Origin: an uncultured Acidimicrobiales bacterium
GTDB lineage: Bacteria; Actinomycetota; Acidimicrobiia; Acidimicrobiales; Aldehydirespiratoraceae
NCBI GenBank assembly: GCA_938091985.1
Contig: CALKOE010000254.1
Span: 1-15,054 of the forward strand
Length of the DNA stretch: 15,054 bases
Reading direction: 5' to 3'
Made by a program: the position numbers and the translations under genes. The notes under the pieces were generated by a model, which saw only the letters and a program-made list of their open reading frames with translations, was not told where the DNA came from and searched no databases. Positions 931 to 10,822 of this stretch are shown in pieces (position 1 is the stretch's first letter; the number at the start of each line of letters is the position of its first letter).

Positions 931-3030
931 TCAGCTGCGCTGCGGTGAGATGCATGGCGCGCCGCCACACACGTCGATCACGGTGCCGGTCCGGAGGAAG
1001 GCATCGATCTGTTCGACCGCGTCGAGGTGACGACGCGGATCCTCGTGAGGGTCGGTTCCATTGCGGGGCGGCACATTCTCGATCGGCGGGACCGGCTGGC
1101 CGCTGTCCCACATCACCGTGGCCGACCCCTCGAACGGATATCCCTCGATGCGGGGAATGCCCCAGAACGGCTCGACATCGCTTGAGCGGCCTTCGCCGAA
1201 CCCAGGCCACACTGCCGACGCCCCCATCGAGCGGGCCATCACATCCATCGCGACATTGGCGACCTGGAAGTCACCAAGCGCACCGTGCAGCAGCCCGGAC
1301 TTCTGGTCGAGGCCTTCCAACGGCTCGGAGTAGTAGTTCACGTAGCCGTTGCCCTCGGCTCGATCCCAGAGCATCTGGATCATCAAGAGCAGCTGGGCCT
1401 GGTCGAGCTTGTCGGGATACGACGGGTCGAGCAGCAGTTGATACTGATCGAAGTCGACACTGCGGTTGAGCAGGGTCGAGTAGTTCACGCCGGGGACACC
1501 GAACACCCCGCGGTCCCAGTCGGTCGACACAGCAGTCGTGACCGGTCCCATGATGCCGCCCTGGCTGATGCCGTAGTAGGCGAGCTGATCGGTGTCGAGG
1601 AGTTGATTGCCATCACCATCGCTGAATGCCTCGTGCGCCGCGAATCCGTCGGGGTGACGCATCAGGCGCCCGAGAAACAGCGTGTTGAGGTGCCCCTGCA
1701 GGAGCCGATCGCTGAGCGTGTGGAAGGTCGAGAGTTCGCCGAGCGCGTTGATGGCGTTGATGACGTCTTCATCGGCCATGCCGATCAGGTCGGTGCCGCA
1801 GATCACATGATTGTGGTGTTCGGCTAGCAAACGAGGGCCGGCCGAGGTCACCTGGTTCCGGGTGCCCAGAAGGCCGTGGCCGTAGATCACGCCGGCGCCC
1901 GGTTCGGCCGCCGTGGTGTTGTCGTGGATCATGCACCGATACACCGAGGCGAACAAGCCGTTGACTTCAGGCAAATCCGGGTCGCCGACCAGGTTCAGCC
2001 CATTGCCGGTCGAACCATCGGCGGTCAGATACAAGGGCACCTCGTAGGTGCCCTCGATGTAGGTGTAGGTGTCGCTGTCGTCGCGGTTGACCGCGTCGAC
2101 GGTGAAGGTCGGAGCAGCGTCGCCGAGGATCGCGAAGGCGTCGTCGCGCATGTGGAGCAGCGGACCGGTGAGGCTCTCGGTCGAGATGACGGTGAACTCC
2201 CACGCGATCACCAACTCCTCGCGAGCCACGCCGGCCGCGGCGAGGTCGCTGAACACTCGTTCCATTGCCGGCCGGTGGGCCTCGACCTCAGCCACATCGG
2301 TCTCGAGGCGGTCCCGATAGGCCCGGAAGGTCTCGGTGGGCTCGATCGCTTCACCCGCGCCGTCGACCAGATTCCGCAGGCCGATGACGATGCGGTGACC
2401 ATCGGGGTAGTTGGTGGCTGGCCGAACGAAGAGTGCCCGCCGATCCGGGTCAGTCGAATTCGCGTCGAGCTCGGCCCAATGGGGCCAGCGTTCGCCGGTG
2501 GTCGCGTCGATCACCACGCTGCCTGACGCGTCGTCGAGCGATCGGGCGATGTCGGAGATCGGCGCCAGCGACGATCCCTGCGGATCCACACCGGGGATGA
2601 GAACGAGGCCGGCACTACCGGGCGAGAACCCGTCGGCTCGGTTCTGACGCGCCGGATCGACGGGTGTGCCATCAACGTGAGCGGGCATGTGATCGAGAGG
2701 TAGGGCCACACGACGACCGGTCGCGGAGTCGGCATCGGCGATCGTGAGGGCGTCACTCGGGAACGGCAACATGCATTCGTGGCCGGTCTGCTCGCAGCCC
2801 GACTCCTGTTCGAGAACGAGCTCGATCGAACCGGCAAACCCTTCGTCCGACGCGATGTCGTCGTTCGTCGAGTCATCAGCACCGTCCGGAGTGTCGACGC
2901 TCTCGCCGCCCGGGTCGGAGCTGTCGGGCGGGGTGGTTTGGCTCTCACCGCCGTCGTCACCCGAACACGCCGCAACGAGCAGCGAAGCTGCTATGACAAG
3001 GGCGATTACGCGATGCAGACGTCTACTCAT
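931..3030 (-). CDS. Secreted lipoprotein with alpha/beta-hydrolase (lipase/esterase-like) signature
   Basis: 699 residues. The N-terminus is a lipoprotein signal: basic MSRRLHR, a hydrophobic core, then lipobox VAAC with the lipidated Cys at residue 22, followed by an acidic Ser/Asp/Gly linker to about residue 65. The mature protein should therefore sit on the outer face of the membrane. The catalytic half shows the signature YGHGLLG (383-389), resembling an oxyanion-hole HG motif, and YYGISQGG (485-492), a GxSxG nucleophile elbow with Ser489. A likely acid is Asp587 in LLHGALGDFQV and a likely base His668 in DPRRHLD; these two are inferred from the usual order of the triad. The N-terminal half (about 66-330) carries no motif I recognise and may be a beta-rich accessory domain. 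Substrate is unknown. Cysteines 79/86, 366/411 and 688/693 could form disulfides outside the cell. The ATG at 3030 is chosen because it gives a perfect signal peptide; no strong Shine-Dalgarno precedes it. Confidence 0.85.
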   Translation of the reverse strand: MSRRLHRVIALVIAASLLVAACSGDDGGESQTTPPDSSDPGGESVDTPDGADDSTNDDIASDEGFAGSIELVLEQESGCEQTGHECMLPFPSDALTIADADSATGRRVALPLDHMPAHVDGTPVDPARQNRADGFSPGSAGLVLIPGVDPQGSSLAPISDIARSLDDASGSVVIDATTGERWPHWAELDANSTDPDRRALFVRPATNYPDGHRIVIGLRNLVDGAGEAIEPTETFRAYRDRLETDVAEVEAHRPAMERVFSDLAAAGVAREELVIAWEFTVISTESLTGPLLHMRDDAFAILGDAAPTFTVDAVNRDDSDTYTYIEGTYEVPLYLTADGSTGNGLNLVGDPDLPEVNGLFASVYRCMIHDNTTAAEPGAGVIYGHGLLGTRNQVTSAGPRLLAEHHNHVICGTDLIGMADEDVINAINALGELSTFHTLSDRLLQGHLNTLFLGRLMRHPDGFAAHEAFSDGDGNQLLDTDQLAYYGISQGGIMGPVTTAVSTDWDRGVFGVPGVNYSTLLNRSVDFDQYQLLLDPSYPDKLDQAQLLLMIQMLWDRAEGNGYVNYYSEPLEGLDQKSGLLHGALGDFQVANVAMDVMARSMGASAVWPGFGEGRSSDVEPFWGIPRIEGYPFEGSATVMWDSGQPVPPIENVPPRNGTDPHEDPRRHLDAVEQIDAFLRTGTVIDVCGGAPCISPQRS

Positions 3031-8161: not shown

Positions 8162-8944
8162 TCAGTCGCGGTCGTGGCCATTGCCGTTGCCGTTGCCGTT
8201 GGAGTGGCCATTCCCCTTGCCCTTCGCATGACCGTTGCCGTTGCCGTTGCCCTCGGCGGCATCGTCGTCATCGCCGTCATCGTCAGTGCCCGTGGACTCT
8301 TCGCCGTCGTCGTCCGCATCGTCGTCGTCGGACTTACCGCAGTCTGTGCCTGCCGCTTCGCTCACGCGATCACCATGGGTTCCGTCGACTTCTGTGATCT
8401 TGTCCCGAGCGACCAATGAGACGTAGTGCCCGTGGTTCAACGCTCCCTCGCACGCAAGCTCGAGTTCCTCGGTGTCGAGACCGTCCGAGGGATCGACGCC
8501 CTCGATCTCCCGATCTGACTTGTCGACGTCGTCGGCGTCGGCGTCATCGCCAACTGTTTCGCCCTCATCGTGCTCATCTTCACCGCCGGCGACAGCCGAG
8601 TCGTCTTCCGGCGACCCTTCGTCGTCCTCGGCTGCAGTGTCGAACGTCTCGGCAAATTCGGGGTCAGGGCTGTCGAGCAGCGTGACCGTGCCGGTCGCGG
8701 CCGCAGCGACGCTGGCCAGGCCGAGGACCGCTGCGGTAGCGGCCACCGCTGTCCGACGGGCGATTCGACCGGTGACTCTGTGTGACGCGAGGGTCAACTG
8801 AGGCGCCGGGCTACTCGCAGCTCCCGGCGCATGCAGACCGGCCAACATCTCGCCTATGGCGCCATGCTCGCTTGTCACGGTCCCGTTGGCCGCAGCCTCG
8901 ATGATCGCGTCGGACTCTCCAGAGGAGAATTCGGTCATGCCCAT
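8162..8944 (-). CDS. One-pass membrane protein with anti-sigma-like N-terminus, acidic outer region and Asn-Gly tail
   Basis: 260 residues. Residues 10-40 are a short cytoplasmic segment alignable with that of the membrane protein at 9564-10283 (IIEAAANGTVTSEHG versus ILDAASSGATISGYE). One membrane helix lies at about 66-88. Outside it, residues 95-160 are very rich in Asp/Glu. Residues 164-203 form a compact piece bearing NHGHYVSLVAR and VSEAAGTDCGK with two cysteines (164, 202). It ends with another Asp-rich run and a tail of Asn-Gly, Lys-Gly and His-Gly repeats ending HDRD. It starts 24 bases after the sigma factor gene, the usual place for an anti-sigma factor, so a role in holding that sigma at the membrane is inferred. 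No zinc-binding HxxxCxxC anti-sigma motif is present. The acidic region might bind cations. Start could be either ATG at 8944 or 8938. Confidence 0.75.
   Translation of the reverse strand: MGMTEFSSGESDAIIEAAANGTVTSEHGAIGEMLAGLHAPGAASSPAPQLTLASHRVTGRIARRTAVAATAAVLGLASVAAAATGTVTLLDSPDPEFAETFDTAAEDDEGSPEDDSAVAGGEDEHDEGETVGDDADADDVDKSDREIEGVDPSDGLDTEELELACEGALNHGHYVSLVARDKITEVDGTHGDRVSEAAGTDCGKSDDDDADDDGEESTGTDDDGDDDDAAEGNGNGNGHAKGKGNGHSNGNGNGNGHDRD
8178..8252. repeat. In-frame hexanucleotide repeat encoding Asn-Gly
   Basis: Two runs of the 6-base unit GGCAAC (read on the minus strand; GTTGCC on the plus strand), at about 8180-8201 and 8232-8251, separated by a degenerate Lys/His-Gly stretch. 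The unit keeps frame when copied or lost, so tail length could vary between strains. Confidence 0.7.
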
Positions 8945-8968
8945 TGATCGCTCGGGCGACCCCAGGCG

Positions 8969-9571
8969 TTACACCACCGAGAGAATTTCTTGCCGATCAG
9001 ATTCTTCGATCCCCGGCAGATCGTGTTGCTCTATGAGCGCCCTGAGCGCGTTCAAGCCTCGGTGGCTCAGCACTCTCACGTTCTCCGGCGTGATCCCGAG
9101 GAGGTCGGCAACCTCATCGACACTCAAGCCGCCGAGCACACGCAATCCGACGACATCAGCCTGACGCGATGAAATCTGGCGAAGAAGTGCCACTGCCCAA
9201 TCCGGCCCGTCATCAACGAGATGGGCATCCAATCGGGGCTCGTGCGGCACTTCGGCCACCGCAAGCGGACGCCGACTGGACCTGCGCACCTCGTCGACGA
9301 GACGTCGCCGAGCGATCGTGAACAGCCATCGCCGAAACTGCTCGCCGTCGCCCGAGAACCGATCGAGTGAACCGGCGACGGACTCCCAAGTGGCCGACCC
9401 GACATCGGCCGCGAATCCCGGCGAGACCGTTTCGAGGTAGCGGCGTAGCCCTGGTTCGTAGGTCCGGTGGATCGCAGCGAACGCGTCCTGGTCGCCGTTT
9501 TTCGCGTCGTCGATCAGCGATGACGGCACCCCAGCTATGTGGGTGCGTCGGCGCCGCTGCTGTCTACTCAT
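8969..9571 (-). CDS. ECF-like RNA polymerase sigma factor
   Basis: 200 residues from the ATG at 9571. Region 2 spans about residues 26-98, with the core-binding helix pattern FAAIHRTYEPGLRRYL and the promoter-contacting block FRRWLFTIARRRLVDEVRR (79-97), rich in Arg as expected. Region 4 spans about 125-182: SSRQADVVGLRVLGGLS, then the helix-turn-helix DEVADLLGITPENVRVLSH and a basic end. The size and two-domain layout are those of ECF (group IV) sigma factors. The start overlaps the stop of the preceding membrane-protein gene by eight bases (ATGAGTAG), implying translational coupling. In-frame starts further upstream would lie inside that gene and are rejected. The next gene downstream encodes a probable membrane partner. 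It should direct transcription of an envelope or stress regulon; the signal is unknown. Confidence 0.88.
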   Translation of the reverse strand: MSRQQRRRRTHIAGVPSSLIDDAKNGDQDAFAAIHRTYEPGLRRYLETVSPGFAADVGSATWESVAGSLDRFSGDGEQFRRWLFTIARRRLVDEVRRSSRRPLAVAEVPHEPRLDAHLVDDGPDWAVALLRQISSRQADVVGLRVLGGLSVDEVADLLGITPENVRVLSHRGLNALRALIEQHDLPGIEESDRQEILSVV

Positions 9572-10283
9572 CTCGCTCACTCGGCTTGCCCTTGCCATTG
9601 TCACTGCTGTTGCCTTTGCCGTTGCCGTTGCCGTTGCCGTTGTTCCCGAGCGGCTCCATCGTCGTGGTGGTAGGTACGACGGTCGTCGTGGGCGGGGTCG
9701 GCGTGGAACTTGTGGGAGATGTTGTCGACGGCGCAGCCGTCGTGGTCGACGCTGGAGCGCTGCTCGGAGTGGACGGATTGGTCCCCGCGGGATCCGATGT
9801 CGGCCCGCCGGGGCTCGGACTGGAGCCCGCGTCATCTCCAGTCGGGTCGTCCGCCACACCGAGAACGGAGCTCACCGGCTCGCCTGGAAGGTCAGATGTC
9901 GATCCCCCGTCTTCGCCAGCCGGGAAGTCTGCGGTATCGCTCACGACCCGCTCGGCCGCTCCATTGCCCCCGGCGTCCGGCTCAGTGTCGACAGCAGGTC
10001 CCGTGCCGGAGAACGCGACGACTCCGATGACGGCGGCAAGGGTCGAGGCCGCCAGGACGATGATGCCCGGCTTCACCACCGCCGCAGCACCCGCGAACCT
10101 TCCAGGCGACGACGCGCCGACCGCCGCAGCGACCGCCGACGTGCTGATCGCAGTGCCTGCCGGCACCGGCGTCGTCGCTCTGACCCGAGTGAGAAGTGCC
10201 CCGACCTGCTCATATCCCGAGATCGTCGCTCCCGACGATGCCGCGTCGAGGATCGCTGCAGATGTCTCGAATGGATCGGTCAT
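9564..10283 (-). CDS. One-pass membrane protein with anti-sigma-like N-terminus, Thr/Pro/Ser-rich stalk and Asn-Gly tail
   Basis: 239 residues. The N-terminal cytoplasmic part (about 1-68) includes ILDAASSGATISGYEQVGALL, alignable with the membrane protein at 8162-8944. One membrane helix lies at about 72-92. The outer region is acidic/Gly-rich (100-165), then Thr/Pro/Ser-rich (165-209), like a cell-wall-spanning or O-glycosylated stalk. It ends in an Asn-Gly/Lys-Gly tail (213-234) and SERDE. No enzymatic motif or cysteine is present. The ATG overlaps the TGA of the short sigma-like gene (ATGA, 10280-10283) and its own TAG overlaps the start of the next sigma gene, so the genes are tightly coupled. 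The layout suggests an anti-sigma or sigma-sequestering sensor for one of the two neighbours; this is inference from position and topology. Confidence 0.75.
   Translation of the reverse strand: MTDPFETSAAILDAASSGATISGYEQVGALLTRVRATTPVPAGTAISTSAVAAAVGASSPGRFAGAAAVVKPGIIVLAASTLAAVIGVVAFSGTGPAVDTEPDAGGNGAAERVVSDTADFPAGEDGGSTSDLPGEPVSSVLGVADDPTGDDAGSSPSPGGPTSDPAGTNPSTPSSAPASTTTAAPSTTSPTSSTPTPPTTTVVPTTTTMEPLGNNGNGNGNGKGNSSDNGKGKPSERDE
9611..9643. repeat. In-frame hexanucleotide repeat encoding Asn-Gly
   Basis: Run of the same GTTGCC unit (plus strand; GGCAAC on the coding strand) as at 8178-8252, inside the tail of the upstream membrane-protein gene. It encodes alternating Asn and Gly. Confidence 0.65.
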
Positions 10284-10735
10284 GCCGCTGTCCCTTCGCG
10301 CATCAACCGAGCGAGACCCTCGTGGCCGGCGAGACGGACTCGCTCCACGGGGCGGCCGATGACAAATGCTGTCTCGAACTCGTCCAGTCCGGCTACAACC
10401 CGGAGGGCAACCACGTCCATCTCGAGCGGTGCCAATGCCCGCATCGCCTGGATCGCAGGGTCGTCGGTGTCATCGGGGTCTGGGCAGACCACCATGCCGT
10501 CGCGAGCGGACCGCAAGAGCCAAATCAGCGGGGCGACACCCTCGGGCTGCAGCGCCAAGGTCCGCGCGGCCCGAGCCCAAACCTCGTCCATGTCCTCGAG
10601 CGCCTCCGGGTTGACGACCTCGAGATAGCGCTCGAGCACCGGGTGGAATCGCTCGTAAAGATCTGCCCATGCGAGGGCGTCGCCTTGGCGCGCACCCGCT
10701 ACGGACGGATCCACGACGGCCAGGCTCAACGACAT
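10280..10735 (-). CDS. Short, divergent sigma-70-like protein with degenerate region 2
   Basis: 151 residues. Residues 12-62 resemble sigma region 2.1-2.2 (ARQGDALAWADLYERFHP and VLERYLEVVNPEALEDMDEVWARA), in the same order as the neighbouring sigma at 8969-9571. The following segment, APLIWLLRSARDGMVVCPDP (68-87), lacks the Arg-rich promoter-contacting block that the neighbour has. Residues 96-147 resemble region 4 (LAPLEMDVVALRVVAGLDEFE then AFVIGRPVERVRLAGHEG), a recognisable helix-turn-helix. The linker between regions is acidic and short. It may be a sigma-like protein that no longer melts DNA, a regulator of its neighbour, or an ECF with altered specificity. It heads the four-gene cassette; its stop overlaps the next start by four bases. 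The ATG at 10735 lacks a clear Shine-Dalgarno. Confidence 0.75.
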   Translation of the reverse strand: MSLSLAVVDPSVAGARQGDALAWADLYERFHPVLERYLEVVNPEALEDMDEVWARAARTLALQPEGVAPLIWLLRSARDGMVVCPDPDDTDDPAIQAMRALAPLEMDVVALRVVAGLDEFETAFVIGRPVERVRLAGHEGLARLMREGTAA

Positions 10736-10822
10736 GTAGGCCTATCGACCCACAACGCCAACAGGTTGACCGATTTCTTTTTGCGTCTGCCGATCGGCGG
10801 ATTGGAAGCTCTCCGTTGCGGC
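10736..10822 (-). promoter_or_regulatory. Upstream region of the sigma/membrane-protein cassette, with a possible ECF-type promoter
   Basis: This gap is the likely promoter region of the four-gene cassette. On the minus strand AACC (10767-10764) and TCGA (10748-10745) lie 15 bases apart and nine bases before the start, which loosely resembles ECF -35 (AAC) and -10 elements. A 10-bp palindrome GCCGATCGGC (10789-10798) and an 8-bp palindrome TAGGCCTA (10737-10744) are present. No terminator with a T-run on the minus strand is seen for the peptidase gene. Confidence 0.3.

Follow-up and report, generated by a model that had tools for sequence, protein, structure and literature searches.

A stand-alone pseudo-sigma protein and its putative membrane partner beside an ECF sigma/putative anti-sigma pair in the Acidimicrobiales: a candidate for sigma factor mimicry

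Why should one operon carry two sigma-like genes, each followed by a gene for a putative one-pass membrane protein, when one of the sigma-like proteins is missing half of its -10 recognition helix? The question is raised by a stretch of 15,054 nucleotides (the window), a single contig (C254) of the incomplete, 66% complete assembly G000 of an uncultured Acidimicrobiales bacterium, and by four of its minus-strand genes, here named S1, M1, S2 and M2 (Table 1). As the earlier note on this DNA had described, sigma-like and membrane genes alternate and overlap or nearly touch, with a 4-base ATGA overlap between S1 and M1 (10280-10283), an 8-base overlap between M1 and S2 (9564-9571) and a 24-base gap between S2 and M2 (8945-8968; 30 bases if M2 begins at 8938). 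The ATGA overlap occurs in all six M1-bearing loci read (the window, G002, G004, G005, G021 and G031). The S2-M2 pair is of a known kind and S1-M1 is what is new in the cassette, in which S1 may serve as a mimic of a sigma factor.

The domain content of S2 identifies it as an ordinary extracytoplasmic function (ECF) sigma factor. Its length of 200 amino acids is counted from the ATG at 9571, with the reading frame continuing open upstream and the alignments to homologues beginning at about residues 12-18. Both Pfam sigma regions 2 and 4, the criterion used here for an ECF sigma factor, exceed their curated cut-offs (PF04542, 33.6 against 24; PF04545, 35.2 against 24.1; PF08281, 34.7 against 25.7), and TIGR02937 is scored at 59.0 (cut-off 42.9). 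The best NCBIfam models, BldN (78.2 bits) and ShbA (74.3 bits), are matched below their required 206 and 209 bits, while the best PDB sequence match is 9isn (ShbA; E 1e-13) and region 4 matches that of SigD (3vep; E 5e-4). The putative anti-sigma factor M2 comprises a cysteine-free N-terminal part of about 60 residues, one hydrophobic helix and an outer region which is of low complexity, yet contains a C-x4-NHG...HG...DCGK motif that is conserved among close homologues and doubled in G021 and G031. Its second ATG (8938) is probably the true start, since many homologues open with M-x-E-I or M-x-D-I/L and since the CGAT of the promoter-like element P2 would then lie 8 bases away, as it does at the element P1 upstream of S1. 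With presence of S2 set at E 1e-22, a cut-off chosen after the first S2 search results had been seen, S2 and M2 are present in the same six of the 51 family genomes. In a one-chain model of S2 with the initial part of M2 (mean predicted local distance difference test score, pLDDT, 75; predicted template modelling score, pTM, 0.56), two M2 helices (residues 8-19 and 25-38) fell in blocks with a mean pLDDT of 68-85 and the rest of M2 at 38-45, an ordering which is compatible with docking of these helices on S2.

The earlier note had also aligned the N-terminal segments of M1 and M2, and this kinship is borne out by profile comparison (hhalign probability 93%, E 2.6e-7, 32 columns), by which the two N-terminal domains are homologous. 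The M2 N-terminal profile recovered from the 51 genomes the M1 proteins of G000, G002, G021 and G031 (E 7e-5 to 2e-3) and otherwise only the six M2s up to E 0.01, with 119 of up to 154 first-look candidates scored in the larger genomes. Reciprocally, the M1 profile found six M1s and the M2 of G021 (E 0.005), together with weak matches to two 118-codon frames in G011 and G061 (E 0.004-0.005), and a protein-database search with M1 returned one relative only. The common layout which had been ascribed to both membrane proteins holds for their low-complexity outer regions, but not for an Asn-Gly tail, as M1 ends in a charged D/E/K-rich tail in G021 and G031; similarly, the proposed distinct outer domains reduce to the conserved motif of M2, there being no conserved outer domain among the five aligned M1s. 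Both proteins are putative anti-sigma factors. Their N-terminal profiles match no solved anti-sigma factor by sequence in the PDB, where the ten matches at E 0.24-1.7 are to unrelated proteins, and in the Pfam and NCBIfam copies used for the search no model is dedicated to M1, M2 or S1.

S1 belongs to a family of 62 near-full-length proteins of 147-175 amino acids, in which the -10 recognition helix is without its second half and a large part of the linker between sigma2 and sigma4 is also missing. Pfam sigma region 2 is matched in one of the 62 (E 0.11), and the precomputed PF04542 assignment occurs in none of 65 S1-family entries as against 54 of the 55 other proteins of the same listing. 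Region 4 is matched in 61 of the 62 at E values up to 1 (best 2.3e-8), and is also the best match of the window's own S1 (E 0.042), which passes no Pfam cut-off. The S1 profile finds its best PDB sequence match in chain A of 6dxo (BldN, in complex with RsbN; E 7e-11), and S1 region 4 matches that of SigD (3vep; E 2e-6). The description of this sigma as apparently defective in the earlier note does not suit so uniform and conserved a family: the S1 reading frame is open in all seven genomes that have it, and the ratio of nonsynonymous to synonymous changes (pN/pS) is 0.07-0.59 over 21 genome pairs and lower than that of S2 in all ten shared pairs. S1 is under purifying selection and is not decaying. 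The relatives of S1 with named loci all derive from metagenome-assembled genomes of Acidimicrobiia or Acidimicrobiales, and where the sources name them it is as "hypothetical protein" or "sigma24 family protein", both of which would mislead. Two family members, P0010 and P0059, have an equal longest contig (34,454), which suggests two S1 genes on one contig.

In a phylogenetic tree of S1 and S2, with 26 genome rows chosen by BLAST, the 11 S1 rows group as a single clade (100/100) borne on a long stem of 1.83 changes per column, with no supported attachment to S2. Approximately unbiased (AU) tests reject no placement of S1, be it with the six family S2s (p 0.276), with two ECF sigma factors of G283 and G163 (p 0.427) or with ten ECF sigma factors from the protein search (p 0.431). 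What survives from the claim of a duplicated and diverged module is two sigma/membrane pairs that are paralogous, one of them having a sigma minus a defining part, while the origin of S1 by recent tandem duplication of S2 is neither supported nor rejected by these sequence comparisons.

The promoter-like element P2 starts in the last codon of S2, spans the TAA stop within its -35-like part and reaches to within 8-9 bases of the probable M2 start. Its full pattern, GTGTAAC-N17-CGAT, has a single match in the G000 assembly, at this junction, and is found at the S2/M2 junction in all six S2-bearing family genomes. The shorter AAC-N17-CGAT lies no more than 60 bases from the S2 stop codon in nine of the ten S2-like loci of the order (the exception being G060), against a background for AAC-N17-CGA of 0.05 per 100 bases and strand. 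Across 14 genomes the full pattern has nine matches, namely the six junctions and three others (before a secreted-looking protein in G015, within a long open frame in G013 and at an ambiguous position in G014), and none when read backwards. A related pattern has six matches in six genomes, at the junctions of G000, G004, G021 and G031 and twice in G015, once before its secreted-looking protein; it is absent from G002, whose seventh base differs. In Corynebacterium glutamicum, transcription assays give sigma-D promoters a -35 element GTAAC(A/G) and a -10 element GAT, and the promoter PrsdA reads GTAAC-15 nt-CTCGAT in 37 of 38 species, according to the accessible text of PMC6338062; the latter has the same AAC-N17-CGAT geometry as P2.

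The second match of P2 in G015 precedes the gene of a 265-residue protein with a signal-peptide-like start (L139:637-1434, minus strand), which shares 52% identity over 207 residues with the outer region of the M2 homologue P0138, including NHG...GC...SDLGK and an Asn/Gly-rich tail. At E 1e-6, a single further relative turns up in the 51 genomes, encoded in G020 (L151), where P2 also lies upstream. From these sequences it seems that one promoter class serves both this anti-sigma type and proteins akin to its outer part. The secreted-protein gene had been expected to track S2 and fails to do so, being present in G015 and in G020, which has no S2 at E 1e-22. Another sigma factor must therefore read P2 in G020, and P2 represents a promoter class rather than proof of S2.

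Upstream of S1, GGTCAR-N18-CGWW begins 36-38 bases before the start codon in all seven loci, including that of G028 (shuffled upstream sequences: mean 0.007 of seven). P1 is also found ahead of S2 in all three family genomes where S2 heads the operon (G015 and, in the form GGTCAG, G021 and G031), and its spacing equals that of P2, with 17 bases from an AAC-like triplet to CGAT. The strict P1 pattern has 20 matches in the 14 genomes, consisting of seven S1 promoters, one S2 promoter (G015) and 12 others, six of which were inspected and each lie within a longer open frame. It matches exactly once per assembly, at the S1 promoter, in G000, G004 and G005, has no match in G001, G003, G006 and G013, and when read backwards matches twice, both times in G031. 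A looser pattern, GGTCAR-N18-CGAT, proved uninformative, with 10-56 matches in each of the 14 genomes, whether or not S1 is present. P1 and P2 are candidate active promoters, with S2 the presumptive reader of P2.

The reading we favour, which falls a little short of an even chance, is that S2-M2 is a sigma-D/RsdA-like switch with feedback through P2, and that S1 is a sigma mimic held by M1 and competing for M2. S2 and M2 would constitute an ECF sigma and membrane anti-sigma pair of the sigma-D/RsdA type, in which S2 would read P2 ahead of M2 and so exert negative feedback. S1 would retain the shape gripped by an anti-sigma factor, minus a portion of the helix responsible for recognising and opening the -10 element, and M1, translationally coupled to S1, would keep it at the membrane. 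Were M1 inactivated or outnumbered, S1 would take the related N-terminal domain of M2 and S2 would be freed, by which S1-M1 would set the threshold of S2-M2 or supply an extra input. The homology of M1 and M2, together with the sigma-like shape left in S1, makes cross-binding the natural hypothesis; binding of S1 to M1 or M2 and the direction of control are inferred. A two-input cassette is plausible, and would be a compact system of four proteins that could integrate two inputs. The narrower proposal, that S1 acts as a stand-alone anti-anti-sigma factor in a sigma-D-like envelope switch, with the mimic stored at the membrane by M1 and, on release, titrating M2 and firing S2, is possible, although we regard it with some doubt. 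As P1 and P2 are short and rare, the regulatory claims are directly testable.

Several observations weigh against the mimic reading. S2 is also predicted to be compact, so that compactness alone is not distinctive of S1, and the anti-sigma-bound BldN (6dxo, with RsbN) and Escherichia coli sigma-E (1or7, with RseA) are not S1-like in arrangement (12.4 and 10.4 Å), even though S1 is closest in sequence to BldN. Region 4 of S1 retains a helix-turn-helix-like shape with which it could still bind DNA or the core polymerase, and the one-chain model of S2 and M2 carries no interface score. The -35 parts of P1 and P2 differ consistently, P1 is missing before four more distant S2-like genes (G042, G044, G048 and G060), and strict matches are found in genomes without S2, for P1 in G014 (one) and G026 (three) and for P2 in G013 (one), G014 (one) and also G020. 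In G021 and G031, which belong to another genus, S1-M1 and S2-M2 lie on separate contigs, with over 10 kb between each pair and the nearest contig end. Lastly, G028 has S1 and P1, but the searches find no M1, S2 or M2 there; S2 is therefore not the sole reader of P1, and S1 of this genome acts otherwise or is a relic.

These last genomes, together with G015, which has S2-M2 without S1, show that the first pair is dispensable as a partner in at least some genomes, and they favour the view that the operon holds two independent switches, linked by a common promoter type and duplication in place. The recurrence of the four-gene order, which the earlier note had put forward as a check, was found in part: read as DNA, S1-M1-S2-M2 is complete in G000, G002 and G004, all of one genus, these being the three genomes of that genus in which both pairs were found and each having them adjacent. 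In G005 the contig ends after S1-M1, and this assembly, 81% complete, shows no S2 at E 1e-22. Among the 51 family genomes five have both S1 and S2, two S1 only, one S2 only and 43 neither, and this co-occurrence (Fisher one-sided p 5e-5, uncorrected for shared ancestry and with the post hoc S2 cut-off) argues against independence, as does the presence of P1 before S2 where S2 leads the operon. Furthermore, nine of the 16 M2 homologues besides that of the window have a longest contig equal in size to that of an S1 member (588879, 187537, 107104, 58365, 48109, 15033, 11154, 5147 and 4481363, which belongs to G004), which points to co-location of S1 and the M2 homologue on one contig. Two of these nine S1 members, P0055 and P0058, carry sequence features of the G028 group, and P0058 groups with G028 in the tree (100/98). 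The linkage may therefore be ancient, with a derived loss in G021, G031 and G028. On balance we consider two independent switches rather unlikely. In G028 itself, S1 is located at L061:9022-9471 (minus strand), and the next frame (8189-8944) encodes what we take to be a dienelactone hydrolase.

Alternatively, S1 might be a DNA- or polymerase-binding regulator under the control of M1, whose sigma4 domain sits on the -35 part of P1 or P2, or on the core enzyme, and blocks or modulates S2. The near-universal region 4 match in the S1 family would fit this role, as would P1 ahead of S1 in every locus read and the arginine in the RVR-type stretch of the recognition helix, which 26 of 31 aligned members retain. 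This arginine is, however, lost in six of the 62 members (P0050, P0053, P0055, P0057, P0058 and P0062) and in S1 of G028, for example with RVAAVS for RVRLAG, though G028 retains P1, and S1 is acidic overall, with a mean charge of -8.7 (n=31) versus -1.6 for ECF sigma factors (n=7). Such a regulator is accordingly judged unlikely, a step below the independent switches. It is very improbable that S1 and S2 make up a split sigma factor, as the incomplete region 2 of S1 and its position beside a second sigma gene could suggest, given that a complete S2 should need no partner for either region and that S1 occurs alone in G028. That S1 is a pseudogene decaying under the protection of its coupling to M1 is barely credible, in spite of the lost half-helix, in view of its open frames, its low pN/pS and its length of 147-175 residues across the family.

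Table 1. Coordinates of the S1-M1-S2-M2 genes and associated features in the window
Feature	Position	Strand	Remarks
S1, pseudo-sigma, 151 aa	10280..10735	-	Keeps sigma4 and the N-terminal half of sigma2
M1, putative one-pass membrane protein, 239 aa	9564..10283	-	N-terminal domain paralogous to that of M2; outer part low-complexity
S2, ECF sigma factor, 200 aa, BldN/ShbA/SigD-like	8969..9571	-	Complete in regions 2 and 4
M2, putative anti-sigma, one-pass membrane protein, 260 aa	8162..8944	-	Second ATG at 8938 is the likely true start
M1 likely membrane helix, residues 71-91	10011..10073	-	Hydrophobic stretch; hydrophobic maxima in M1 homologues
M2 likely membrane helix, residues 65-87	8684..8752	-	Hydrophobic stretch; low-confidence helix in model
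M2 outer motif C-x4-NHG-x2-VS-x-VA-x-D...HG-x2-VS-x-AA-x2-DCGK, residues 165-204	8333..8452	-	Kept in close M2 homologues
P1 promoter-like element ATCGGTCAAC-N17-CGAT	10744..10774	-	8 bases 5' of S1 start codon
P2 promoter-like element GTGTAAC-N17-CGAT	8947..8974	-	Includes S2 stop TAA; 8 bases 5' of M2 second ATG

On the minus strand the four genes follow an M3-family peptidase gene, and a CorA gene converges on them from the opposite side. Further away in the window, a 699-amino-acid lipoprotein-like protein (931-3030, minus strand) has no Pfam match at E 0.001 and has a counterpart in G002 with 82% identity over 646 residues.

In the SigD-RsdA systems, the anti-sigma factor binds and inhibits its sigma factor, which is released by regulated proteolysis. 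The pairs of Corynebacterium and Mycobacterium combine an ECF sigma factor with a membrane-anchored anti-sigma factor (PMC11175481, in the part available), as S2-M2 combines an ECF sigma factor with a putative one. The Corynebacterium anti-sigma gene has its own GTAAC-N17-CGAT promoter (accessible text of PMC6338062), which P2 matches by sequence only, and region 4 of both S1 and S2 matches that of SigD. The present locus departs from SigD-RsdA in its additional pair with a pseudo-sigma and in the NHG-type motif in the outer region of M2. The sigma-binding region of RsdA, a short and fast-evolving domain, has no Pfam match up to E 10 and no PDB sequence match in M1 or M2.

Anti-sigma factors of the RsbN class have a fold that wraps around the sigma factor. 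The BldN and ShbA sigma factors of Streptomyces resemble the locus in supplying the best NCBIfam models of S2, albeit both below cut-off, and the best PDB match of the S1 profile. In contrast to BldN-RsbN, S1 has lost part of region 2 and its model is arranged differently (by the above 12.4 Å). M1 and M2 match no chain of 6dxo by sequence, and the fold search was confined to comparisons of individual chains. RsbN itself is an anti-sigma factor anchored in the membrane (review PMC8103513, available excerpt), and the accessible portion of PMC9205884 holds no ShbA promoter motif. In the two-subunit sigma SigO-RsoA of Bacillus subtilis, an incomplete sigma is encoded near its partner sigma (PMC8103513, same excerpt), as S1 is near S2; unlike in that system, S2 is complete in regions 2 and 4 and S1 supplies no missing region.

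Sigma factor mimicry is known from PhyR, whose degenerate sigma-like domain titrates NepR, and in the available parts of the reviews PMC8103513 and PMC8999054 it is the PhyR system of the Alphaproteobacteria that represents it. Among the titles listed from open-licence papers on decoy, mimic, inactive or degenerate sigma factors, on tandem or pseudo-sigma factors with anti-anti-sigma factors and on acidimicrobial ECF/anti-sigma pairs, none concerned a stand-alone pseudo-sigma. Like PhyR, S1 has a sigma-like fold with a degenerate promoter-binding part, and by this analogy S1 would act as PhyR does, without a receiver domain. Unlike PhyR of the PhyR-NepR-EcfG system, it consists in its 151 residues of sigma-like parts only, derives from another ECF lineage and phylum and is encoded beside its own membrane protein; the Pfam PhyR sigma-like model touches only one of the 62 S1 proteins (E 0.057). 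If S1 is a mimic, partial loss of the -10 recognition helix would be a repeatable path from sigma factor to regulator of anti-sigma factors, and if it acts as a stand-alone anti-anti-sigma factor, the mimicry known from PhyR would have arisen independently in the Actinomycetota, free of a response-regulator domain and supplied with a second input from the membrane.

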